This document shows positions 4,604 through 29,158 of a stretch of 40,344 bases of DNA, piece after piece (position 1 is the first letter of the stretch; each line of letters begins with the position of its first letter). The translations under genes and the position numbers were made by a program. The notes beneath the pieces are model-generated. The model ran no database searches and had not been told where the DNA came from. It saw only the letters and a program-made list of their open reading frames with translations. Origin of the DNA: a virus; the IMG/VR virus record IMGVR_UViG_3300036781_000285, positions 1 through 40,344 of that record. One strand, given 5' to 3'.

Positions 4604-5704
4604 TCAGGCGACTTTGGCGGCGACGCCCTTGCCGATCAGATAGGCCTCATAAACTTTCGGGGCCGTCTTCATCACGTGGCGATGGGCATTGCTGCCCGAG
4701 AGTTTGAGGGCGCCCGTCTTGGCCTCTTCGACCAATTCGAGGTAGCCTTTCGGCTTGTTCTTGGCTTCGAGCTCGAGCTTCTCGGCCGCGAGGCGGATTC
4801 GTTCCTGTTCGGCCGCGGCATCGCCGCCGCCGCCGCCGGCCGCGCCCGATGCGGCGCCGGCGCCGAGCTTCACCCCGAGGGCGTCGTTTTGCTGTTTCAG
4901 CTTGAGCGTCTCGGCGGTCGTTTCCGTCCGGAGCTTCTCGAAATTCGTTTTGATCGCGGCGAGCTCGCTCGTCATGGCGTCGACGGCGGTCGCGAGTTTT
5001 TTCTTTTCGTCAGCGTCGGCCGGCGGTGCTGAGAACTTGGCGAAAGAGTCCGAGAGCGATTTCAGAAGGGACATGCAATCGGCAATTGTGGGATCGTTTT
5101 CTTTTTTGTCGCCCATGGTGAGATTTGGGATTATTACTTTATTTTCGTTGTCCACTCCTTTGCGGCAAAACAGGCCGCCCGGGGTGATCGCGCCGGCGTC
5201 GACAATGTCGACCGCCTCGAGCTCGGAAACTCGCATAAAGGCGATGTCCCCTTTGATTTCGAAGCGGGGAGTGAAGTCGATGGAAAGGCCGATTTCGCCA
5301 GGTGTCTTTGCCGCGGTTTCAAGGACGACCGCCCGGTTCCGGTAAGAGTCAAAAAGGTGCAAATCACCGATTGAACGATCACCCAGAGTCCGGAAATTAT
5401 CGATAAAGCCGGCCCGTGATCCGATTGAGTCGTCGTGATCCTCCCGGCATTTCACCTGACCGCCGGCATCTTGAGCGGCCCCCATCAGGGTTGAAAGCGT
5501 TTCTTCGTCCGTCGCGATCTGTAATTTTCGTTTGGCCTGAGCCGGATCAAGCGTCCGATCTCCGTTGCCGTCAAACATGACCTTATGGCCTTGAGCCTGG
5601 ACGCCCGCCTTCCCGATCGTAACGTCCCGAATTACCCCTTTTTCCAAGTCGATGGAGCTGCTCGACAGAAAAAAACGGAATTCATGCAGTGGGATCGTCT
5701 TCAT
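4604..5704 (-). CDS. Prohead protease fused to scaffold domain
   Basis: A 366-residue protein from the ATG at 5704 (32 codons inside the longest frame, which would otherwise overlap portal much further). Residues 1-180 look like a herpes/HK97-type prohead serine protease: a His in EDHDD (His90) and a Ser in EIGLSIDF (Ser141), followed by the ELEAVDIVDAGAITPGGLF strand typical of the family end. Residues about 200-300 form a charged coiled coil (ADADEKKKLATAVDAM onward) and a glycine/alanine linker follows, as expected of an internal scaffold. The fusion parallels lambda gpC with Nu3. It would process and shape the prohead before DNA packaging. The start overlaps the portal stop by 23 bases. 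Confidence 0.75.
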   Translation of the reverse strand: MKTIPLHEFRFFLSSSSIDLEKGVIRDVTIGKAGVQAQGHKVMFDGNGDRTLDPAQAKRKLQIATDEETLSTLMGAAQDAGGQVKCREDHDDSIGSRAGFIDNFRTLGDRSIGDLHLFDSYRNRAVVLETAAKTPGEIGLSIDFTPRFEIKGDIAFMRVSELEAVDIVDAGAITPGGLFCRKGVDNENKVIIPNLTMGDKKENDPTIADCMSLLKSLSDSFAKFSAPPADADEKKKLATAVDAMTSELAAIKTNFEKLRTETTAETLKLKQQNDALGVKLGAGAASGAAGGGGGDAAAEQERIRLAAEKLELEAKNKPKGYLELVEEAKTGALKLSGSNAHRHVMKTAPKVYEAYLIGKGVAAKVA

Positions 5705-7265
5705 TACCCATGCCCGGTTTGTCCACGTTCTGACCGGTCTTTCCCTGGGTCGGAGGGCTGGGGTTGGGGAACTTCTTCGAAAGGTATGGCAAAACCACAT
5801 CGAACGCGACGCCGCTCGAAGCCGACACGCGTTTCGCCGCTTCCATGATCGTCAACGCTTGGTTTTCGATCCGCTGATTGATCATCTGCAGGTCGCCGCC
5901 TTGTTCGGAAACATATTCATCCGGCGACATCAGGCCGGCATCGATCAAATCAATGTCCGCCTTTGCTTCCTTGGCGTAGTCGACCGAGATCGCGCGACCC
6001 ATCTGCCATGTGCCTTTAAACCGGGCGAGCGAGGTCGAGAGGTTGCCGAAAGAGCGCAAATCGAGGAAACCCGTCTGGATTCCTTTCTGGATAACCCGGT
6101 TTTTGAAGGGGTTGAGAAGAACCCGCTTCATCCATCGCTTTTCCTCGTCGAATGTGCCCTTCGCTTTGTCGGCAAAGAACCGCTGAATTACCCCGCCGGT
6201 TTGGCTTTGGTAGCAGAATTCGAGCGGGAGCTTCGCGCCGACTGCACATTCACGCTTCAATTCGTTCATCAGGTTGACGAATTGCCCATTAGGGAAGTCG
6301 TTCGGGTACTCCATCACGCCTTCGCTGAGTTTCAAAAAGCTTTGCGTGACCCCGTCGACCTTGATCGAAAGCGGTTCGGGGACGCCGTCCAGCCCTGGCG
6401 CCTGGGTTTCGTAGCTGTTGCCGCGCGGCCGGCCCTGCTCATTGGTCACGTAAGGGAGCTGCGCGGACCGCCATTTGATGTTCAACTTCGTGAAATCGAT
6501 GATCTGCTTCATGTCAAAAGCGTGCTCGATCGCGTTCATGAAGACGGTGACCCCGTGATATTGTTCGTAACGGAACGGGGAATAATAATGGCGGAAGTCG
6601 CTGGCCGAAACTTCGAATTGCGGGACGTAGGCGTTCAGCTTCGGAAGCCGGCGATAAATCTGATAAATAACCGGGGCGCCGGTCGCTAGGTCGACGATAA
6701 TCCCGTTGTAATTGTCAGGACCGATGTTTGCCCCGACCATGGGGTTCCCGATCCGGTCACCTGACACGGCGTTGATCTTGATGGAATCGCCCTGATCGAC
6801 GAAGGTGAAACCACATTCGCCATCGCGTTTATAGGATCGAATTCCAAGCCGGGAAAGTTTCGTAAGATCAAGCCGGTCGGAAAGATCGCACGCGTTGAAC
6901 TGCCATTCGCAAAAATCGTTTATGACCTTGTCGGCGTTCTTGTCGCCGGTGTTCGCGGAATACTTCAGATCCCCGACCACGTAGGTTTCAAAGTCTCCTA
7001 GGATGCCGTCGAAAAACGGAAGGTCTTCTTCCATCTGCCGAGCTGCTCGGATCAAAATGATTCGCTGATAGGCCTGTTTGTAATCCTCCGGAGTGGACAG
7101 GATCGCCGGTGACGGCCGTTTGTTGCCAGGCTCGGCGCCGGCGTAAAAGCGCATCGTCCTTTCGGCGCCGTGCATCGATTCCAGTTTAAGGAATTGCTGC
7201 GCGCGCATCCGATCAATGCGCCATTCGCCGGTGACTGCTTTATGGATCAGGTCGGAGATATTCAC
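5682..7265 (-). CDS. Portal protein (lambda gpB-like)
   Basis: A 527-residue protein, close to lambda gpB (533), located between a gpW-like gene and the protease as in lambda. Features of lambda-type portals include the early YAGAEPGNKRPSPA and Q-rich helix, the block RIILIRAARQMEEDLPFFDGIL (residues about 70-90), and the stem/wing region KINAVSGDRIGNPM then PVIYQIYRRLP. It forms the dodecameric channel for DNA entry and docking of terminase and tail. Its ATG overlaps the stop of the upstream joiner gene by 4 bases. Confidence 0.85.
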   Translation of the reverse strand: MNISDLIHKAVTGEWRIDRMRAQQFLKLESMHGAERTMRFYAGAEPGNKRPSPAILSTPEDYKQAYQRIILIRAARQMEEDLPFFDGILGDFETYVVGDLKYSANTGDKNADKVINDFCEWQFNACDLSDRLDLTKLSRLGIRSYKRDGECGFTFVDQGDSIKINAVSGDRIGNPMVGANIGPDNYNGIIVDLATGAPVIYQIYRRLPKLNAYVPQFEVSASDFRHYYSPFRYEQYHGVTVFMNAIEHAFDMKQIIDFTKLNIKWRSAQLPYVTNEQGRPRGNSYETQAPGLDGVPEPLSIKVDGVTQSFLKLSEGVMEYPNDFPNGQFVNLMNELKRECAVGAKLPLEFCYQSQTGGVIQRFFADKAKGTFDEEKRWMKRVLLNPFKNRVIQKGIQTGFLDLRSFGNLSTSLARFKGTWQMGRAISVDYAKEAKADIDLIDAGLMSPDEYVSEQGGDLQMINQRIENQALTIMEAAKRVSASSGVAFDVVLPYLSKKFPNPSPPTQGKTGQNVDKPGMGNEDDPTA

Positions 7266-9110: not shown

Positions 9111-10967
9111 CTACTCGCGTTGAAAGACGCCGGCCTTGAGTCCAAGAACAACGAGCATGCACCCGCAATCATAAAGGTGATCCGGATGGCCGCCGATCTT
9201 CACCCACATCCGGCGCTCCTGTCCTTTTTTATCCTTCACCATGGCTTGCCGGTGGCTGTTCAGGTGCTCCGCATACTCGGGACAAAATTCACCGATATCC
9301 GAAGGGATTTCGTGTGTCTCGCCTTTGCCGTCGCGAAGCACCGCATAAAGATCCTGCACTTTCTGCGATGACCACAGAAAATAGACGGCGTGTTTCCGCC
9401 CCTGCTTTTCCGTGCCGAACCCGACGTCAATCATTCTGAATTCGGAGAAGAGCATGCGCACTGGCGGCTCATTGCCGGTGCCGGCGTGAAGGAATTCGTC
9501 GGCATCCTGACCCATCATTCCGAACCATTTATAACGGGAGCAAATCTCATCCACTTCCACGGGATCAAATCGGCGATCGACGACAACCCACGGTCCGGGC
9601 GCTTTCTCAGACCAATCCGGAACGCCGAGATCAATTTGTTTTTTCCGGACGTCTTCCCATTCGTTGATGCGTCCGCAATCCACCAGTCGAGAAGTCCCGC
9701 GGCGGGAGAACGCCCAGCATTCAAACCAGCGATGAGGAATGTCTCCGGCTTCGCCGCGCTGATTGTCGACGGACATCACGCGAATCCATTCGTCGGCCCA
9801 CTCTCCTTTTTTCAGCATCTGGCTGCGGGTGTAAGAACCCAGCCGCAACTTCGCGGAAACCACGATCGGCCGATCTTCCCACATCTCGGCGAGCTCTTCG
9901 GTGATGAACTGGCGAAGGATTTCGTTGTTAAAAATGCCGCCGCGGAGGTTGAGCCGGACCCACGGGGTCAGAATCTCGGCCCAAGTCCGGCGGCCGATGG
10001 CAAAAGCGTTCACATGATAGGACCGAACCTCGGGATTCGCGGCCGGATTCATGTCCACATAAGCCCCGGTCCGGTTCATTTGAACGAGCCTTTCCTCGTC
10101 GTATGTCATCTCGTGTTTGCAATGGGCCTGCGGACAGACGACCCGGATCGTTTTTTCAAAATCGGCCAGGTTTAAGCGGCCGTCCGCATGCAGAAACGCC
10201 TTCGTCATGTCGAAGCGGATCGTACATTTCGGCGATCGATGATCGAAAACGTATTGAAATAACGCATTGCACTTCGGGCAATGGTGAGACCACTCGCCTT
10301 GATTCCCGGCGTGAAAACGTTCGTCGAGTTCGGACCCTTTGTCCCCGCCGACTGAAATGTTCAGGATTTTCCGCGTGTCTTTATAGGCGCGAAGGCGCGC
10401 GTGCATCTGAGTCAGCCAGGGCCTTTCCCACAAATGCACCTCGTCGTTTATCTGGACTTCGACGGAATCCGATTGGCGGTTCGCGTCTTCCTCCGCGCCC
10501 TGCATGATCAGCCAGGTTCCATCGCGAAAAATAATCTGGCGGGTTTTCTTTTTGTGCGGGTCGTCGCTCAGCCGCTCCTTCAGTTTCTTGCACGCCTGGA
10601 TCATCGTTTCCCATCGGCGTTCTTGGAACTGTTGCGCCTTCACGTTTGTCGCCGCGTTGAAGGCGCACTTCGCCGGCCGCGTGACGATCGTGTTCGCGAG
10701 ACAGACCTGGGCGACGATCGTCTTCCCGGCTTCCTGCGGAGGTCCGATGAAGGTCACTTCCCGCACATAAGGATTTCGGAACGCGCGATAAACTTCCCGG
10801 GTCCATGAAACGTTATCGACATCGAACCGGCCCTTGAATGATTCGCTCCCGCCGAAATCAATCGCCGCGTCCGAGTGATCGGCCTTCGTTCCGCCGGCCC
10901 ATTCGTATATTTCCCGGCGGTCTGCCATGATGACGGACCGGCAAAACAAACTCGCCAAAGAGTTCAT
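9111..10967 (-). CDS. Terminase large subunit (GpA type)
   Basis: A 618-residue protein (lambda gpA is 641). The Walker A-like loop GPPQEAGKT lies at residues about 75-83 and the acidic Walker B pair in VQINDEVHLW near 175. A zinc-knuckle-like CPKC (230-233) and a second Cys/His cluster (CPQAHCKHE) follow. The nuclease part has VMSVDNQ, VVVDRRFD and the late HPDHLYDC, fitting the RNase H-type nuclease of the GpA family. It cuts and pumps DNA. The start chosen overlaps the small-subunit stop as ATGA; an upstream ATG at 11006 would make the overlap 43 bases. Confidence 0.92.
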   Translation of the reverse strand: MNSLASLFCRSVIMADRREIYEWAGGTKADHSDAAIDFGGSESFKGRFDVDNVSWTREVYRAFRNPYVREVTFIGPPQEAGKTIVAQVCLANTIVTRPAKCAFNAATNVKAQQFQERRWETMIQACKKLKERLSDDPHKKKTRQIIFRDGTWLIMQGAEEDANRQSDSVEVQINDEVHLWERPWLTQMHARLRAYKDTRKILNISVGGDKGSELDERFHAGNQGEWSHHCPKCNALFQYVFDHRSPKCTIRFDMTKAFLHADGRLNLADFEKTIRVVCPQAHCKHEMTYDEERLVQMNRTGAYVDMNPAANPEVRSYHVNAFAIGRRTWAEILTPWVRLNLRGGIFNNEILRQFITEELAEMWEDRPIVVSAKLRLGSYTRSQMLKKGEWADEWIRVMSVDNQRGEAGDIPHRWFECWAFSRRGTSRLVDCGRINEWEDVRKKQIDLGVPDWSEKAPGPWVVVDRRFDPVEVDEICSRYKWFGMMGQDADEFLHAGTGNEPPVRMLFSEFRMIDVGFGTEKQGRKHAVYFLWSSQKVQDLYAVLRDGKGETHEIPSDIGEFCPEYAEHLNSHRQAMVKDKKGQERRMWVKIGGHPDHLYDCGCMLVVLGLKAGVFQRE

Positions 10968-11455
10968 GTCGCGGCCGGCGTCTCTTCTCCCAAAGTCAAA
11001 GCCCATAGACCCTCTTTAAAGCGACGAAGAATAAAATCAATTGCCGCATCGTTCATCTGCTGGCACTCGACCGAGCCGCGGCCCTTATATTTTCCCGGCA
11101 GCTCCTGGGAAAACTTTTGAATCATGTTCGCCGTGAATTCGGCCATCGCTGCTTCGACGGTTGGACCGATTGTTTTTTTTGAAATATATTCGCCCTTCGA
11201 TTTCGACAGCTCGAATTGTTGCCGTTCGGTCTCGAGCCTGAGCTTCAGCGTTCGGAACGTCCGCACCTCCGATCCTTCGATATTCGCTGAGCCTTGATCC
11301 GCGATCCATGCGCGGACTTGTTCGCGGTCATATTTTTTCCATCGATCGCGCTTCGGCGCTCCCTTCATCGAAAGATATTTGACGACGGTCCCGCGCGACA
11401 AACTAAGTTCGGCCGCGAGCTCCGATTGATTGCGCCGAATCGGTTTTTTTTTCAT
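10964..11455 (-). CDS. Terminase small subunit (Nu1-like)
   Basis: A 163-residue protein directly upstream of the large subunit with ATGA overlap. Residues about 8-30 (RRNQSELAAELSLSRGTVVK) form a helix-turn-helix, followed by a wing region KGAPKRDRWKKYDREQVRAW, the same winged-helix pattern as lambda Nu1. The middle (SEVRTFRTLKLRLETERQQF) is a helical segment expected for oligomerisation, and the C-terminus carries the large-subunit contact. It recognises packaging DNA. A longer TTG start at 11512 exists, but the ATG begins at the conserved winged helix. Confidence 0.85.
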   Translation of the reverse strand: MKKKPIRRNQSELAAELSLSRGTVVKYLSMKGAPKRDRWKKYDREQVRAWIADQGSANIEGSEVRTFRTLKLRLETERQQFELSKSKGEYISKKTIGPTVEAAMAEFTANMIQKFSQELPGKYKGRGSVECQQMNDAAIDFILRRFKEGLWALTLGEETPAAT

Positions 11456-12233: not shown

Positions 12234-12683
12234 TTACGAAGAACCGGCTGCGGCTTCGCTTCCGGTGTCGCTCGCTCCAGACGTGGCGACCGGCGCCGGC
12301 GTATCGGTAGCGGGAGGCGGGGTAACCACGGGAGGCGCGGGCGGATTCAGATTGTTGATGTCGTCTACCTTGCTTTTCAACGCCGCGACCGAAGTCGAAA
12401 GCGAATCAAGCGTGGCTTGGTCTTCATCGCTGATCGAACCATCAGAGGCTTGGAGTTCGGTAATCTTCTGCTCGAGCGTGACGACGCCGGCTTTGATTTC
12501 ATCCAAACCATCGGAGAGTTGCTGATTGAAGGCCGTTTGGCTGGCCGCATATGCGGCGATCGCGACGTGGACTGTATTGCTCATGGTGATTTCTAGGAGT
12601 TCGATCCTGGCGAGGATCCGGATTGTTTGATTATTGGGGCGATCCCGCCAGAAACTCGGGAAAAGGTATTTGAACAAGTTCAT
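12234..12683 (-). CDS. Small coiled-coil protein with Pro-rich tail
   Basis: A 149-residue protein, last gene of the early unit. From the chosen ATG at 12683 it starts MNLFKYLFPSFWRDRPNNQT, then a helix and a coiled coil (residues about 45-110, with DGLDEIKAGVVTLEQKITEL), and ends in a low-complexity Pro/Ala/Ser tail. A second ATG at 12584 would give a 116-residue form without the basic, aromatic start; neither has a Shine-Dalgarno site. It resembles small helical phage proteins but I know no function. It is followed by the strong terminator at 12166. Confidence 0.55.
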   Translation of the reverse strand: MNLFKYLFPSFWRDRPNNQTIRILARIELLEITMSNTVHVAIAAYAASQTAFNQQLSDGLDEIKAGVVTLEQKITELQASDGSISDEDQATLDSLSTSVAALKSKVDDINNLNPPAPPVVTPPPATDTPAPVATSGASDTGSEAAAGSS

Positions 12684-12738
12684 GATTTTCCGGCGGTTGA
12701 TTGGTAGAGAGCAAATTTGCCGTCCGAGTTCCAGTTTT

Positions 12739-12774
12739 AAAAGCCCTGCGCGTTTTAAGTGCCGCGCCCCACTT
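12739..12774 (-). terminator. Hairpins with T-run at the end of the pentamer array
   Basis: After the last pentamer repeat the minus strand reads AAGTG...CACTT (12774-12757) and, alternatively, GCGCG...CGCGC (12767-12748) followed by AGGGCTTTT. Either fold could end or process a transcript of the array. The stems are short (5 pairs), so this is tentative. Confidence 0.3.
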
Positions 12775-12778
12775 TTTT

Positions 12779-13428
12779 GCCTTTGCATTGCTCAACCACG
12801 CCCCCCACTGCCTTCGCTTTGATCATCCTTGCAACGCTCGGCAGAATCGAACTTCGCACCGCCTTTGCCATACGTCACCTTGCGTCACCTTCGCTACGCG
12901 CTACGGGGCATGGCCTCTGCAATACTCCGCTGAACCCCGACGATGCTTTGCTGTGCTTGGCGTTGCCTTTGCAGTTCGACGCATTGCGAAGCGATGCCGC
13001 TGCATTGCTTCGCACTGCGACACACCACTATGCCGGGGCGATACTGTGCCAAGCGTAGCCGTGGCCGCTACGATGCAGGTCATCGCTTCACATCGCCGTT
13101 GCTGTGCGTAACTTCGCATTTCCGGAGCTTTACCGCGCCTGACCTTGCTTATCCATTGCGCCGCGTGATCTCGCATTGCTCTTCCCTGGCGCTGCTCAGC
13201 TTCACATAGCCTTTGCCCATCGCCGCCTAACTCCGCTATACCTTTGCATTTCAGGGCCCTGCTCTGCCATGCGCTTCCGTTGCGTTGCTCTGTTATGCAA
13301 TGCCGGTGCGCCGCGCAGCCACGCACGGCCATAGCGGTGCAGCGCTGCGCAGTGCTCTGCCAATGCTTTGCCGTGCCCGGCAACACCTTCGCCGTTCCCT
13401 GCCCTGCTGTTCAGTGCCATTGCGGGAT
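12779..13428 (-). repeat. Degenerate GC-anchored pentamer array
   Basis: 650 bases between the RAMP-like gene (stop at 13429) and the next gene hold no recognisable gene. The minus strand is built from short words in which GC, or sometimes GG or GT, recurs every 5 (at times 6) bases with three variable bases between, for instance GC-AGA-GC-ACT-GC-GCA in 13357-13341. Words like GCAAAGC, GCAATGC, GCACAGC and GGCAAAG recur throughout. A 5-base period does not match codons, so the open frames crossing it (for example 12904-13386) are probably by-products of the composition. There are no fixed repeats and spacers, so it is not a CRISPR array. It could be a structured or protein-bound RNA, or a DNA-binding array. 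Role unknown. Confidence 0.8.
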
Positions 13429-14040
13429 TTAAGCGAGTTCTTCCCAAGTGAAACGGCCTTTGCCTGAATTCCGCCATTGGCCGATTCCCTTGAATTGACC
13501 GTAATCCAAACACTCGCGGATCATCGGTTCGGTGATCGGTGCGTTTGGCAGCAATCGGATTTCAATTTCAAACGATGTGCCGGCCGAGATCACTTCTGAT
13601 CGCGCAAGACTCACGCGCGGGCCCTGCATGGTCTGAGCGCGAAGCGGCCGCTCGCAAATGTCGTCACACTCCTTTTTGCCGAGCGAGATTTTGCGGGGGA
13701 AGACGAAAACGAAATTGTCGAATTTCGACTTCGCGGACCCCCAGCGTTTGCGGGTTTTCTTTTCGCCGTCCGTTTGCTTTGGCTCCTCCTCGGTCTGGCG
13801 AAGGATGTCGGCCGCTTCCTTGAGAAATCCTTTCACTTGGTAATCCCACAGCATCAGATCACCGGCCTCGTTGCGGTGAAAGATGGTCGTCCCGGCTTCC
13901 TCGCGGTGTTCCGCGGTGTCGAGTTCTTCCTTGCGCCGATCGCCGTCCGGAGCTTTCGAGGCGATGAAGGTCGCAAAGACGTCTTTGTTCGCGGCTTTGG
14001 TTCCGAGTAATTCCTCGGTAAACGTTATTTTGATTTTCAT
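13429..14040 (-). CDS. RAMP-like protein with C-terminal glycine-rich loop
   Basis: A 203-residue protein. It begins with a beta strand (MKIKITFTEELLGT) and carries near its C-terminus GQFKGIGQWRNSGKGRF (residues 181-197), a double-glycine loop of the type seen in RAMP/Cas7 and Cas6 family RNA-binding proteins. The stretch PLRAQTMQGPRVSLARSEVI (132-151) before a long strand also fits a RAMP-like fold. From memory, similar proteins occur in phages of Firmicutes next to comparable short-word repeat regions; this was not checked. It opens with the leader motif at 14042-14053 and lies directly upstream of the pentamer array. No CRISPR or Cas genes are nearby. RNA binding is an inference. Confidence 0.65.
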   Translation of the reverse strand: MKIKITFTEELLGTKAANKDVFATFIASKAPDGDRRKEELDTAEHREEAGTTIFHRNEAGDLMLWDYQVKGFLKEAADILRQTEEEPKQTDGEKKTRKRWGSAKSKFDNFVFVFPRKISLGKKECDDICERPLRAQTMQGPRVSLARSEVISAGTSFEIEIRLLPNAPITEPMIRECLDYGQFKGIGQWRNSGKGRFTWEELA

Positions 14041-14129: not shown

Positions 14130-14774
14130 TTATTTTCGGATGTAAAACCCATCGCCCCACAGTCCGCCGTGCCAAATGGTTTCGACACGGGAAAAGCCAA
14201 ATTTCGCAAGATAACTGTCGAGCATTTCAACCCGGGCGCATCCGTCGAATACCTCGCCGCGGTTGATCTCGGTAAAAATGTAATCGATGCCGCGCAAGGT
14301 GTGCTCCGCGCCGTATAGCACATGGAGCTCATATCCTTGGGCGTCCATGAAAAGGAAATTGTAGTCGCCCGCGCAAAACCATGCTGGGAACGCATATGAA
14401 ACGATGTCGTCCAGTCGACGGACTTTCACCGTTTCTTTATGGGTAAATTCAATGTCCGGCCTGATCGCCAAATGTTCGCGTGGCGTGAGTAGTGAGCAGG
14501 ATTGTCCGCCATTGCTCGTTTCAATGTTCATCGGGAGAAAGCCGTTGATGTTCCCCAATGCGGTCTCGAATGCCAATACGTTGACGCCGTCCGGCCGGAC
14601 GCGCTGCTTCAGGATTTCGAAGTTCGCGCCGACCGGTTCGAAATAGACCCGGTGCTTGATGCCGGCGGCGATCCATATCGGATCTTCCTGGCCGTGATGG
14701 GCGCCGACCTGGATCACGCCGCGGACGTGCATCCGGTGCTTGATCATCAGGGTTTGGAATTCGGGGGCGGTCAT
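14130..14774 (-). CDS. FkbM-family methyltransferase
   Basis: A 214-residue class I SAM-dependent methyltransferase of the FkbM type. Motif I is VIQVGAHHGQE (residues about 20-30), the post-I acidic residue is in YFEPVGANFE (44-53), and the family block LFMDAQGYELHVLYGAE lies near residues 140-156. These enzymes usually O-methylate sugars or small-molecule hydroxyls. The start overlaps the previous stop (ATGA). In this phage it may modify the same glycan as the two-domain glycosyltransferase, but that is only an inference. All expected motifs are present and the gene looks intact. Confidence 0.8.
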   Translation of the reverse strand: MTAPEFQTLMIKHRMHVRGVIQVGAHHGQEDPIWIAAGIKHRVYFEPVGANFEILKQRVRPDGVNVLAFETALGNINGFLPMNIETSNGGQSCSLLTPREHLAIRPDIEFTHKETVKVRRLDDIVSYAFPAWFCAGDYNFLFMDAQGYELHVLYGAEHTLRGIDYIFTEINRGEVFDGCARVEMLDSYLAKFGFSRVETIWHGGLWGDGFYIRK

Positions 14775-15940: not shown

Positions 15941-16254
15941 TGGCGGGAGTTGGTTGGATGACGTTGAAAAAGATGCCGGCGCGCGCGGGGAACGTAGGTC
16001 CGCGCGGGTTCGGTGATCGGAATCGGCGACAAAAGGCGCCGGAAAAAAACAAGGCGATGCTCGCGCCAGAATTCAAACTCCCGGCCGTCTCGATCGATGA
16101 TTTCCATGATCCTTTCTTCGGGATCGAATCCGGGGCCGAGCGGTTCGCCCGGTTGCATCGCGCCGGCGTAGTCCAGCACGGAGGCGGCGAAACAGCGCGG
16201 CGCGCCCGGGTCGAGGTCGAGAACCATCCGAACGAATTCATCCAATGGCTTCAT
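15916..16254 (-). CDS. Small hypothetical protein
   Basis: A 112-residue protein that starts MKPLDEFVRMVLDLDPGAPR at an ATG overlapping the methyltransferase stop (ATGA), a strong argument for this start over the in-frame ATG at 16287. The C-terminal third is basic (PRARRHLFQRHPTNSRQW) and overlaps the next gene. No domain recognised. Its tight coupling to the cytosine methyltransferase suggests joint expression, without proving a shared task. Confidence 0.55.
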   Translation of the reverse strand: MKPLDEFVRMVLDLDPGAPRCFAASVLDYAGAMQPGEPLGPGFDPEERIMEIIDRDGREFEFWREHRLVFFRRLLSPIPITEPARTYVPRARRHLFQRHPTNSRQWLPISSK

Positions 16255-17365
16255 TTGATTTCGCCGGTTTCGATTTGCCGGATCCAATGGAAGAATTTTT
16301 CGACGACTTGCGGGACAATCGCGTTCCCGAGTCCTTTAAGGCGGTCCACCCTATCGGGTATCCCATCAGCCACTCTACAAAATCCGGATTCAGGGAGCCA
16401 CTCACACCAGTCCGCATTAACGCTCCCGGAATGTTGTCCCGGTTGAGCTGGCTCGCCGGAAGCGTCGCGTTTTTGTGTTCCTGCATTGACGGCGTCGGCC
16501 ATAGTCGGGCCGCCTTGCTCAATGTCGGATTTCCCGTCCCGTAATTCCCCCCTTTCATTCCGTCCGATGCTGTTGGGGTTGGAAATATCGATTGATTGAC
16601 CGCCCTGCCCAATTCGTTCCCCGATGGGCCGTTGCTCTTCCCGTCCTTGCTGAATCCATGCGGTGTCGGCCACATCTTTGCCGCTGTCGCAAGATTCGGG
16701 TGAGATCCCCCCCCCCGTTCGCTGCGCGGCAATTTCTGTCTCGCTCGGAATTTCTCCATATCCTTTTCCGGTTCCATCGCGCATGGTGTCGGAAACAGTT
16801 TGTTGGGAAAGTTCCCCCGCATCACACTCTGCAAGTCCGCGCCGCGTTTCCCGTCCGGCCTCCGGCCCCCTTGTCTCGATGAGGTCGCTGTGGGCCACAA
16901 TCCAGACCCGATCCCTTCGATGTCGGGCATCGACGGCACAAGCCGGAATAATAAACGATTGCGCGGAGTAGCCGACGCTTTCCAAGTCAGAAAGCACACT
17001 GTCGAGCCCCATGCTGACATGCCCAAACACGTTTTCACAAATAATCCAAGATGGCCGGACGATTTTGATAATTGCGAACATTGCCGGCCACAAGTGGCGA
17101 TCGTCATTCGATCCTCCTCGCTTCCCGGCAAAACTGAATGGCTGGCACGGGTAGCCGCCGGTGAGAACGGCGGGTCGAGAAATTCCGGAAAAAGACTCCA
17201 GTCTTCGGATGTCTCCGAGATTGGGGACGTCGGGAAAATGCAGGGCGAGGATTTTGCAGGCGTAGGCTTCAATTTCCGAGAAGCCAATCGTCCGGAATCC
17301 GGCTCGTTTTGCAGCAAGGGCAAATCCTCCGATTCCTGAAAAGAGGTCAAGATGGGTGAGGTCAT
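16238..17365 (-). CDS. Overprinted second frame inside the cytosine methyltransferase gene
   Basis: A 375-codon open frame in the +1 phase, running almost the whole length of the methyltransferase gene and past its stop. It shows motifs not expected of chance: CFLTWKASATPRNRLLF, five copies of a WPTP-like word (LWPTAT, LFPTPC, MWPTPH, IFPTPT, LWPTPS) and NPDFVEWLMGYPIGWTAL near the end. I recall near-identical strings in predicted phage and prophage proteins, usually annotated as methyltransferase-associated. They may be true second proteins or by-products of conserved methyltransferase codons. No coupled or Shine-Dalgarno start was found for it. Confidence 0.3.
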   Translation of the reverse strand: MTSPILTSFQESEDLPLLQNEPDSGRLASRKLKPTPAKSSPCIFPTSPISETSEDWSLFPEFLDPPFSPAATRASHSVLPGSEEDRMTIATCGRQCSQLSKSSGHLGLFVKTCLGMSAWGSTVCFLTWKASATPRNRLLFRLVPSMPDIEGIGSGLWPTATSSRQGGRRPDGKRGADLQSVMRGNFPNKLFPTPCAMEPEKDMEKFRARQKLPRSERGGGSHPNLATAAKMWPTPHGFSKDGKSNGPSGNELGRAVNQSIFPTPTASDGMKGGNYGTGNPTLSKAARLWPTPSMQEHKNATLPASQLNRDNIPGALMRTGVSGSLNPDFVEWLMGYPIGWTALKDSGTRLSRKSSKNSSIGSGKSKPAKSNEAIG

Positions 17366-17372
17366 TTTTCAT
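16251..17372 (-). CDS. DNA (cytosine-5) methyltransferase
   Basis: A 373-residue C5 cytosine methyltransferase with all key motifs: DLFSGIGG (residues 9-16, SAM loop), PCQPFS with catalytic Cys76, ENV (113-115), RHRRDRVW (150-157) and the C-terminal GNAIVPQ (about 349-355). The target recognition region between motifs VIII and IX (about 165-320) is long and made of repeated VADT/SNP-like steps. It would methylate phage DNA, probably to escape host restriction, together with the adenine methyltransferase at 20892. The same DNA also holds a full second open frame (16238-17365). Confidence 0.92.
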   Translation of the reverse strand: MKNDLTHLDLFSGIGGFALAAKRAGFRTIGFSEIEAYACKILALHFPDVPNLGDIRRLESFSGISRPAVLTGGYPCQPFSFAGKRGGSNDDRHLWPAMFAIIKIVRPSWIICENVFGHVSMGLDSVLSDLESVGYSAQSFIIPACAVDARHRRDRVWIVAHSDLIETRGPEAGRETRRGLAECDAGELSQQTVSDTMRDGTGKGYGEIPSETEIAAQRTGGGISPESCDSGKDVADTAWIQQGREEQRPIGERIGQGGQSIDISNPNSIGRNERGELRDGKSDIEQGGPTMADAVNAGTQKRDASGEPAQPGQHSGSVNADWCEWLPESGFCRVADGIPDRVDRLKGLGNAIVPQVVEKFFHWIRQIETGEIK

Positions 17373-26160: not shown

Positions 26161-28146
26161 TTAACCCGTGATGACGTCAAATTGGTAGGTGATATTCTCG
26201 AGATTGTTCTGCGCGCCGAGCTCGTCGATCGCAGCGCGATAAAGCACTTCCCGGCCGACATCGATCCCGACGAACTGATTCAAATCGCCGGCCTTCAGCG
26301 CCTGATCGATTCGGAAGAGCACCCGCGGAAGGTTTGCATCCGATATCCGCCCCATTTCGTCCAGGATCATGACGCCGAAAGGCGAGGAAGCCGAAAGGGC
26401 TATTTGAATCGCAGCATATGCAAGGGCCTTCTCGGTACCGGAAAAGGTGTTGTGAGCGACCCAAAGACCATCCCGCCAGGTTCCGATCTCGCCGGCTTTG
26501 TAACTGAGCGGTGAGCGCAGCATGTCCCCGAAAAGGGCGTTTGCCTTGTTGAGGAGCGGAACGAAGACATCGCTGACCATTTGGGCCTGAATTTCCCGCA
26601 AGGCCACGGTTGCGCCCTTGATCACTTCGATTTCGCGCTTCGCTTCGTCCCTCTGCTCCTCGGCCTCGGCCAGGCGCTGCAGATCGCCGGCGCGTGCCAT
26701 GGCCTTTCGGTGAACTTCCTTCAAATTGCGCTGCGAGTCGGTTTTTACATTGATCGAGGTTTGCACGTCGTCGACCTGTTGCTGAAGAAGCGCATCCTCA
26801 GCCGGAAGTTGATCAAGCTCGGCGTTCAGGGTGTCGAGTCGCGATATCAGGCCCGTAAGACGGTGAATTTCGCGCGTAGCGACCGAAATTTGTCGGGAGA
26901 GGGTATCCGCCTGGGTCTGAACCTGATTCGCGGCCGACCATGCCGCCACAGCGTCACGCCACTTTTGCAAGGCATGTTCTTCGACTTTCACAAGTTCCGC
27001 CACTTTATCCGAAAATCCTTCGATCGAAATCACCAGTTCGGCGGCCCGTTGCATCTTCCAATTGTCGCCAGTTGCCCCGCAATATGGGCAAATCGGCGCA
27101 GCGTCCAAATCCTGCAGGGCCTTTTCCTGTTCCTTGACTGTCTTTTTATGGGAATCGATCTGGATCCGGATGGATTTCGCACCGCTTAATAGGTTGGCGT
27201 TTTCGATGGCCATCACGCCGAGAGCATCCAGGCCAGGGACCGCCAGTTTTGAAAGCGCATCCTCCCCGGCATTTTTCGAGGCGTTTTGATCCGCCATGAA
27301 CAACCGGTCTTTCGCGCCGGCTTCGATTTCCTTTTTGAGGTATTTGCGGCGCTCGCGGGCCTTCACGATCGCGTCGTAAGACCCGATAAACACGCCTTTC
27401 TTTTGGGAGAGTTCGGCCAGCTCGCGTTCGAGTAATCCGATTTGCTGCTCGATCGACGAAATCGACGCGCCGCCGGTCTCATCTTGGGCCCGCAAATAGG
27501 CGAGGCCCTGAATTGTCCGTTGCATCTTGTCGGAGAGGTCGGCCGATTCCTTGGCGAAGGTCTTCGTCGATTCGATGGCCAGGGCGACGAATTGCTGAGG
27601 GTTCTCAAACCCGGCTTCGGTGCAAACGTCGTCCAGCTTCGCCAGATAACTTTCCACGTCGGCCGGCGTATAACCGGCTTCCGGATCCGGCGAGGCGAGA
27701 GATTGCCGAATCTTCTCTTGAACGACGATCGGGGACCACTCGTCGGCATCCATCGGAATCATCGCGGTGACATAGTCCACGCGCTCCCGGTCGCTCTTCG
27801 CAAAGTATTCGTCGGCGTTGAGCATCACATTCATGCCGGCGAACTGCTCGATCGTTGGGGGGACGATTGCGCCCGACTTGATCGAATCGCCCGAGACGAA
27901 CCATTTTCTCGTGATGGTTTCGCCGGTGTCGAATACTCCACGCAGCAGCATTTCCCGGCCGCTCATGAGTTTTGACGTCTTCGCCTTGCCGAGCTCGGGC
28001 AGGTAGCCGACGAGAAGAAGCCGGATTGCATCGGTCAGGGTCGTCTTTCCGACCCAATTTTCCCCGATGACCATATTCAGGGAAGAAAGGTTTCGGGCGA
28101 AGCTTTGCCCTTTGAAGTTCGAAACGGAAATTGAGGTGAGGCGCAT
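26161..28146 (-). CDS. SbcC/Rad50-like AAA ATPase with zinc hook
   Basis: A 661-residue SMC-like ATPase. Walker A is GENWVGKTT (residues 28-36), a long helical region follows, the hook motif is CPYC (353-356) at the centre, another coiled coil follows, and the C-terminal part holds FSGTEKALA (568-576, signature motif) and VMILDE (592-597, Walker B). This is the two-head plus zinc-hook design of Rad50/SbcC in small form. No SbcD-like nuclease gene was found next to it, so it may work alone or with host SbcD. It would process DNA ends in recombination with the ERF protein. The short head-to-hook arms suggest a compact phage version. Confidence 0.85.
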   Translation of the reverse strand: MRLTSISVSNFKGQSFARNLSSLNMVIGENWVGKTTLTDAIRLLLVGYLPELGKAKTSKLMSGREMLLRGVFDTGETITRKWFVSGDSIKSGAIVPPTIEQFAGMNVMLNADEYFAKSDRERVDYVTAMIPMDADEWSPIVVQEKIRQSLASPDPEAGYTPADVESYLAKLDDVCTEAGFENPQQFVALAIESTKTFAKESADLSDKMQRTIQGLAYLRAQDETGGASISSIEQQIGLLERELAELSQKKGVFIGSYDAIVKARERRKYLKKEIEAGAKDRLFMADQNASKNAGEDALSKLAVPGLDALGVMAIENANLLSGAKSIRIQIDSHKKTVKEQEKALQDLDAAPICPYCGATGDNWKMQRAAELVISIEGFSDKVAELVKVEEHALQKWRDAVAAWSAANQVQTQADTLSRQISVATREIHRLTGLISRLDTLNAELDQLPAEDALLQQQVDDVQTSINVKTDSQRNLKEVHRKAMARAGDLQRLAEAEEQRDEAKREIEVIKGATVALREIQAQMVSDVFVPLLNKANALFGDMLRSPLSYKAGEIGTWRDGLWVAHNTFSGTEKALAYAAIQIALSASSPFGVMILDEMGRISDANLPRVLFRIDQALKAGDLNQFVGIDVGREVLYRAAIDELGAQNNLENITYQFDVITG

Positions 28147-28157
28147 GGGATTAGGGT

Positions 28158-28538
28158 TTAAAGGGAAATGTCTTTGTCGAGTTCACACGCCGGCGAGCGC
28201 ACTTCGACCGGTCCATGTCGCGCAACTTCGATCGCTTCTTTTTGATCCTCTAATTCCCCGGCGCGGTGGATCGCCCATTGAAAGCCGTCCGTCGATTCCC
28301 AAAAGGTTTTCGCTCTGCCGTATTGAGAGAATAAATTAAGCGGGATCGCTTGGACCTCGGGAAAGTTCTGCAAAACGGGCGTCGGGATCTTCTTTTCCCC
28401 GTCCAACAATTGGCGAAAAATCTCGCAGTCTAAAACGGTGCTTTCTCCGTTCTCGTCTGTCGTGACGATCCGCTTGCGGATCACGCCGAAAGCGATCCCG
28501 CCTTGATATTGAATTAAAATCGGTTCGTTGATGTCCAT
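28158..28538 (-). CDS. Hypothetical protein
   Basis: A 126-residue protein starting MDINEPILIQYQGGIAFGV, 12 bases upstream of the SbcC-like start. The first half is strand-rich (FGVIRKRIVTTDENGES), the second helical. No catalytic or metal site found. It lies in the recombination cluster, which is the only clue. Confidence 0.5.
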   Translation of the reverse strand: MDINEPILIQYQGGIAFGVIRKRIVTTDENGESTVLDCEIFRQLLDGEKKIPTPVLQNFPEVQAIPLNLFSQYGRAKTFWESTDGFQWAIHRAGELEDQKEAIEVARHGPVEVRSPACELDKDISL

Positions 28539-28547
28539 GGATGGGGA

Positions 28548-28973
28548 TCAGTTGTGTGATGGGTTGATGACGCTTTCGCGGTTTGGGTTCTGAACGATCT
28601 CGACGAACCACGCCGGCGGGATTTGTCCGGAGACAAGCCGCCAATAATGATTCCCGGGAAAGGAATTTAAAAAGGACTCGGAATCGGGGTGATATTTTCG
28701 CGCCATGAGCGGCCAGGGAACGACGCGATCGAGGGCGATCGGCGGAATCGCAATCGTAATCCGCCATTCATCGCGCCGGAAGGGAAGGTGGGAATGTGGT
28801 TGGGGCCTCGCCCATTCCTGCATGAAATCGCCATTGATCGTGGTCCATTGCCATCCGCCCACCATTGAAACCCGATCAAGCTTGTCGAGATTCCATGGGA
28901 TGACGCCCTTCGTCAATCCCTGCGCCCGGATCAATGGAATGTGTTTCCGCGAGGTGAAGTGATATAAGGTCAT
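28548..28973 (-). CDS. ART-like small protein (possible ADP-ribosyltransferase fold)
   Basis: A 141-residue protein. Its opening MTLYHFTSRKHIPLIRAQGL is the YHFT...I...GL start seen in RNA 2'-phosphotransferase/ART-like and DarT-like families, and it ends with LVSGQIPPAWFVEI. The middle has FRRDEWRITIAIPPIALDRV. From memory, a family with this plan exists in phages, called only hypothetical. The catalytic residues were not assigned and no toxin partner is seen next door. Overlaps the next gene's stop (ATGA). Confidence 0.5.
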   Translation of the reverse strand: MTLYHFTSRKHIPLIRAQGLTKGVIPWNLDKLDRVSMVGGWQWTTINGDFMQEWARPQPHSHLPFRRDEWRITIAIPPIALDRVVPWPLMARKYHPDSESFLNSFPGNHYWRLVSGQIPPAWFVEIVQNPNRESVINPSHN

Positions 28974-29158
28974 GATTTGCGCGCCGCCTTATTGGCGGTG
29001 TATTTCTCGACATTTTGAGCCATCGAAGTGCCGAGGTTTTCGAAAATGGTGCTCCCGGCAAAAAACCCGGTCGTCAGGGAATACCAGACGAAAGAGCAGA
29101 TGAATCCGATCAAAAGGAAGGGGATCATCACCATGAAGAAGAGAATCATTTTGATCAT
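28970..29158 (-). CDS. Small membrane protein
   Basis: A 62-residue protein from the ATG at 29158 with one strongly hydrophobic stretch (residues about 4-35, MILFFMVMIPFLLIGFICSF and on), followed by a polar tail ending in KYTANKAARKS. It would be a one- or two-span inner-membrane protein. No function known; it is produced early. The start chosen leaves only 7 bases after the previous stop. Confidence 0.55.
   Translation of the reverse strand: MIKMILFFMVMIPFLLIGFICSFVWYSLTTGFFAGSTIFENLGTSMAQNVEKYTANKAARKS

Follow-up and report, generated by a model that had tools for sequence, protein, structure and literature searches.

The 40,344-base stretch of viral DNA analysed here (IMG/VR record IMGVR_UViG_3300036781_000285, positions 1-40,344; hereafter the window) very probably carries a VIPR-type phage locus, in which a RAMP protein would work with a guide RNA encoded by a pentameric array beside its gene. 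VIPR (Viral Interference Programmable Repeat) combines a Vipr protein with vrRNA and was described in a preprint first posted on 27 April 2026, with a version 2 of 25 June 2026 (PMC13142463). That preprint reports RNAs of GGY/NN pentamers that are bound by a phage RAMP protein and guide it to DNA, a mechanism that was tested; the variable pairs recognise the DNA, and one base is skipped in each repeat (PMC13142463). Because it holds terminase and portal genes, the window is a tailed phage or prophage. Its main features are listed in Table 1.

Table 1. Positions of the RAMP gene, the array and other recognised features in the window.
Feature	Positions	Strand	Description
Lambda-type portal protein	5682-7265	minus	library match
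GpA-type terminase large subunit	9111-11006	minus	library match
Array	12776-13423	minus	125 units of pentamer type, G-(C/T)-(A/G-rich)-N-N, including 23 six-base units that open with an extra G; presumed to encode a vrRNA-like guide RNA
Longest uninterrupted block	12813-12863	minus	10 units between two joints; candidate single guide
vipr-like gene	13429-14040	minus	203-aa RAMP (predicted Cas7-fold) protein, glycine-rich loop G-x3-GIGQWRNSGKGRF
FkbM-type methyltransferase	14130-14774	minus	upstream of RAMP gene; PF05050, E 3e-11
DNA methyltransferase	16254-17372	minus	PHROG 1008 match in overlapping reading frame call
SMC/SbcC-like ATPase	26161-28146	minus	weak family matches

An earlier note on this DNA had described GC, GG or GT at every fifth base of the minus strand between positions 12779 and 13428. 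The rhythm is real and far above chance, and it lies where the note had placed it, on the minus strand. Within 12779-13428, the periodogram of GC positions has its maximum of 46.7 at a period of 5.185 bases, compared with a best value of 9.24 in 1,000 dinucleotide-preserving shuffles and of 9.3 in 295 other 650-base windows of the contig, which is the excess over the rest of the genome that had been expected. GC-GC spacings include 5, 6, 10, 11 and 15, with a spacing of 4 absent, and the rhythm stays coherent across the whole 650-base stretch. Some details of the earlier description need correction: the period is not exactly 5, and the limits are those given by a hidden Markov model whose 5-base units may carry insertions, which parsed the minus strand from 13423 to 12776. 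Of the parsed units, 97% open with G; the second base is C (72%) or T (18%), and three variable bases follow, the first of which is A- or G-rich. The mean period is 5.185 rather than 5 because an extra G, which makes a 6-base word, enters once per 5-7 words, and a coarser second rhythm of 26, 31 or 36 bases is present. Words do recur (GCAAA occurs eight times), so that the statement that they are never exactly repeated was too strong, although diversity is high, with 78 distinct words among 125. As had also been noted, the array begins directly behind the stop codon of the RAMP gene (13431-13429). A modest hairpin (z -1.1) lies behind the window array.

The array code was quantified in 198 arrays from 149 loci, comprising 17,194 units, with 2,203 distinct blocks used for per-position information. 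The extra G occurs once per approximately six units, and the length of the blocks between extra Gs has its mode at 5-7 units. In inner units, the first G carries about 1.2-1.8 bits and the second base 0.3-0.7, and information falls to 0.04-0.2 at the A/G-rich third base and mostly to 0.00-0.05 bit at the last two. Blocks meet at a conserved joint of about 8-9 bases, GCAAN-GG, in which the last unit of one block reads GC-A-A-N and the next opens G-G-C/A-A; joints recur at irregular intervals of 5-7 units, and arrays are continuous, with up to about 300 words. Comparison of 22 mutually dependent pairs of related arrays gives substitution rates of 0.015 for the G and 0.044 for the base after it; each of the next three bases has a rate of 0.063-0.067. 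Because the bases themselves served to label the units, the low rate at the G, and the lack of any substitution at the inserted G, are to some extent a product of the labelling; this does not apply to the evenness of the last three bases and of codon positions. Neither covariation nor base pairing was found across the joint, where the highest mutual information reflects only one lineage that prefers one second base, and array ends of the family have no hairpin excess, conserved 3' tail or terminator. In human gut phage records (L265-L268), words start with GA as well as GC and GT, and the GCAAN-GG joint is retained. In the minus-strand array of another locus (L094, 12378 bases), whole blocks are repeated internally and partly also in two other arrays (L140 and L031), a pattern that copying or exchange of blocks as modules would give.

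On the evidence of its predicted fold and sequence profile, the product of the gene ahead of the array is a RAMP protein, which agrees with the earlier recognition of a RAMP-like protein with a glycine-rich loop. An AlphaFold2 model built from 24 relatives has a pLDDT of 86 and a pTM of 0.79, and Foldseek searches with this predicted structure return type VII CRISPR Cas7 as the best match, followed by Csm3 and gRAMP. The sequence profile of the family matches the type VII Cas7 chain 21bh over the G-loop (E 2e-4) and also Csm4. This loop, DYGxxxGIGQWRNSGKGRF, is the most conserved part of the protein, with invariant residues in the 24-sequence alignment. A gene with the same loop (GVGDWRPRFGRF) occurs at 28474-29061 in phage SUSP1, which served as a control; its GGTNN/GGCNN words, with a period close to 5.0, lie on both sides of the vipr gene, in agreement with the preprint. 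Profile-profile comparison aligns the window family with SUSP1-type Vipr end to end over 181 columns (E 1.4e-4, probability 52%, from small alignments). Among reference families, no member of the 24-protein alignment matched Pfam at E 0.01; for alignment members, NCBIfam, PHROGs and PADLOC each yielded a single marginal match and no family that names the protein; and in CRISPR families the best score of alignment members was E 0.0039, with the window's own protein matching none. Such loci are at present mostly unannotated because the protein matches no Pfam family and has marginal matches elsewhere. An Rfam search of the locus returned only sub-threshold chance matches and no hammerhead. The downstream open reading frame at 12234-12791 was considered as a relative of the protein family and rejected: its likeness disappeared once it was left out of the profile.

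That array and RAMP gene go together in many phages is supported in both search directions. Some rhythm was present near all of the first five protein relatives fetched, one of which (L003) is weak when scored with GC and clear with GT. In the full set of 164 loci with the gene, 116 have a rhythm score of at least 14 no more than 1.6 kb away from it; the loci include near-duplicates (143 genes are distinct), so the 116 are not all independent. No control stretch more than about 4 kb from the gene reaches that score (0 of 133; maximum 10.3). None of the contrary outcomes that the earlier note had named (no spacing peak, homologues without arrays, codon-level conservation) refuted the pairing, and the two parts that it proposed are real, although the kind of system is not new and matches VIPR. 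In the reverse direction, a DNA pattern that contains the rhythm without the protein returned 120 stretches from IMG/VR, 21 of which also encode a homologue, in nearly every case next to the array. Alignment searches found 451 relatives in IMG/VR, of which 80 were kept, together with 58 loci in genomes of bacteria and archaea, many of them in metagenome-assembled genomes (MAGs) of gut clostridia and others in MAGs of Coriobacteriales, Verrucomicrobiota, Gemmatimonadales and Saccharibacteria; plasmid records yielded no relative of the protein. Arrays track the gene family across host phyla. Gene and array also occur together in a culturable isolate, Caldicoprobacter algeriensis TH7C1 (L240). 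One contig binned as Lokiarchaeota (L237) has a RAMP relative with 43% identity and no clear array nearby, for which a virus or a binning error is possible. An 86-kb Oscillospiraceae MAG contig (JAGCAN010000001.1) carries two RAMP loci of the family (L234 and L236) with equal identity (40%) and match length.

Loci of the family sit among early genes of temperate phages, including SSB, repressor, integrase and RecT- and RusA-like genes, as recognised from sequence. The strongest repeated neighbour that they have in common with the window is the DNA methyltransferase, relatives of which occur less than 6 kb from the RAMP gene in 11 loci. Among the 143 distinct loci, no gene family is constantly adjacent as an accessory gene; the commonest families nearby are general phage genes.

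Strand, adjacency and base patterns suggest how the two parts could function. The array would be transcribed on the strand of the gene (minus), probably together with it, and the resulting RNA would consist of pentamers with a constant G-C/T and variable bases. By analogy with VIPR and Cas7 complexes, the protein may coat this RNA with one subunit per pentamer, so that constant bases are gripped and variable ones presented. Following the preprint, which is the only model for this step, the complex could pair with a gapped DNA site, probably in a competing phage or prophage, and block transcription of the target. The GCAAN-GG joint splits the array into blocks, each of which may be a guide unit or may mark where overlapping guides end. 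Two adjoining blocks would contain 10-14 words, close to the published 9-16, and our guess is that this would fit overlapping guides. Equal substitution rates at the three bases that follow G-C/T suggest that three bases, and not two, may be read in this clade. It is possible, if rather doubtful, that the guide code of the clade differs from the published one: each pentamer would have three variable bases (G-C/T-NNN), and the joint would delimit short guides of 5-7 words, which would imply a reading rule and guide processing other than those of the one-base skip.

Target decoding in 3.2 Mb of related phage DNA covered five registers, two or three bases read per word, skips of 0-4, extension of matches and the additional bases of the joint; no rule exceeded the reversed-order controls. 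Scanned exactly in IMG/VR, three decoded single-guide patterns produced no match, and sites with two mismatches number four in 295 genomes, within chance expectation. These null searches neither support nor refute guiding; true targets probably lie outside so small a set. Set against the VIPR-type reading are the null target search, the missing tail, the missing constant accessory gene and a direct profile probability with SUSP1 Vipr of only 52%.

The only serious rival explanation is that the protein coats double-stranded DNA, for example at a partition or packaging site, with approximately 5.185 bases as half a helical turn (10.37 bp). The closeness of the mean period to half the B-DNA repeat and the coherence of the rhythm over 650 bases are in its favour, but the extra base comes as a defined GCAAN-GG joint at irregular 5-7-unit intervals rather than evenly spread, and the variable positions are nearly free of preference, unlike a binding site. 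SUSP1, with its homologous protein, has strictly 5-base words, and its RNA was sequenced (PMC13142463); the predicted fold of the window protein is also that of RNA-binding Cas7. A DNA-coating role is therefore considered improbable.

Two further explanations have far less to commend them. The array is crossed by open frames of 136 and 161 aa, one of which could be read as a low-complexity repeat protein, but this is contradicted by a unit that is not a multiple of three, by the extra base that shifts the frame every 26-36 bases, and by a commonest indel length between related arrays of 5. Substitution rates in related arrays are also even over codon positions (0.049/0.050/0.053 for positions modulo 3) and uneven by pentamer phase. 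The array is non-coding and has no codon signal, as the earlier note had maintained from a period that does not fit codons, and the codon-level conservation that it had named as contrary evidence is not seen among these relatives; a coding origin is accordingly given a negligible probability. Equally improbable is a decaying or selfish tandem repeat, similar to a microsatellite, that lies beside the gene by chance. Some blocks are indeed duplicated within arrays or common to several of them (as in L094), but the words have their frame in common and not their filler, and arrays follow the gene family from one host phylum to another, both of which contradict such an origin.

The VIPR-type reading gives the clade some importance as a natural resource. 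The very recent preprint claims that recognition of DNA by RNA guides with a gapped code is older than CRISPR (PMC13142463). A large clade with another word and a second, coarser rhythm offers 2,203 distinct natural blocks; they come from up to 149 loci, many of which belong to gut clostridial MAGs. With these blocks one could examine the reading of the code, the start and end points of guides, and what sets the step of the RAMP filament on RNA.

Among known systems, class 1 CRISPR-Cas shares with the window locus the Cas7 backbone protein (type VII Cas7, type III Csm3), which is similar in predicted fold, G-loop and a weak sequence-profile match, and the window protein, too, would presumably cover its guide RNA at regular steps. 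Unlike class 1 CRISPR-Cas, the locus lacks ordinary repeats and spacers, no cas operon was seen, and the rhythm is of 5 bases rather than the 6 of crRNA complexes; instead of near-identical repeats with unique spacers and cas genes, nothing in the array is constant beyond the joint of about 8-9 bases. TIGR-Tas would differ from the window system in its protein, which has a Nop domain, and in an array of 36-base units that contain two 9-base spacers. Its likeness lies in a phage-borne array and an RNA that guides a protein to DNA (PMC12045711).

The closest resemblance is to type II VIPR as found in SUSP1: a single phage-borne RAMP protein of about 20 kDa with a G-loop, distantly homologous to SUSP1 Vipr, beside a long intergenic pentamer array with constant and hypervariable positions in a minimal phage or prophage locus. 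The word of this clade is G-C/T-R-N-N, whereas that of the SUSP1 type is GG-Y-N-N; the exact GGY word is absent, and the array agrees with VIPR as a "related consensus", in the wording of the preprint, which reports seven VIPR types and also staggered arrays with overlapping vrRNAs (PMC13142463, figs S17, S18). The clade also has a joint with an extra G per 5-7 words and a period of 5.1-5.2, compared with 5.0 in the SUSP1 type. A type II vrRNA consists of 9-16 repeats without interruption and ends in a conserved structured 3' tail, and characterised VIPR types are described with a conserved tail or terminator and an accessory vap gene (vap1-6) (PMC13142463). Here, in contrast, arrays are continuous, with blocks of 5-7 units and a joint, without a conserved tail or hairpin excess, and no constant vap gene was found. 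Because the preprint describes other architectures, this difference excludes type II and not VIPR. The same anatomy and the end-to-end profile alignment with SUSP1 Vipr make the window locus most likely a VIPR system of a distant clade. The kind of system was already known, since VIPR was described months earlier; what is new is the anatomy of the clade, above all its two-level rhythm, variants of which may already be present in the supplement of the preprint.
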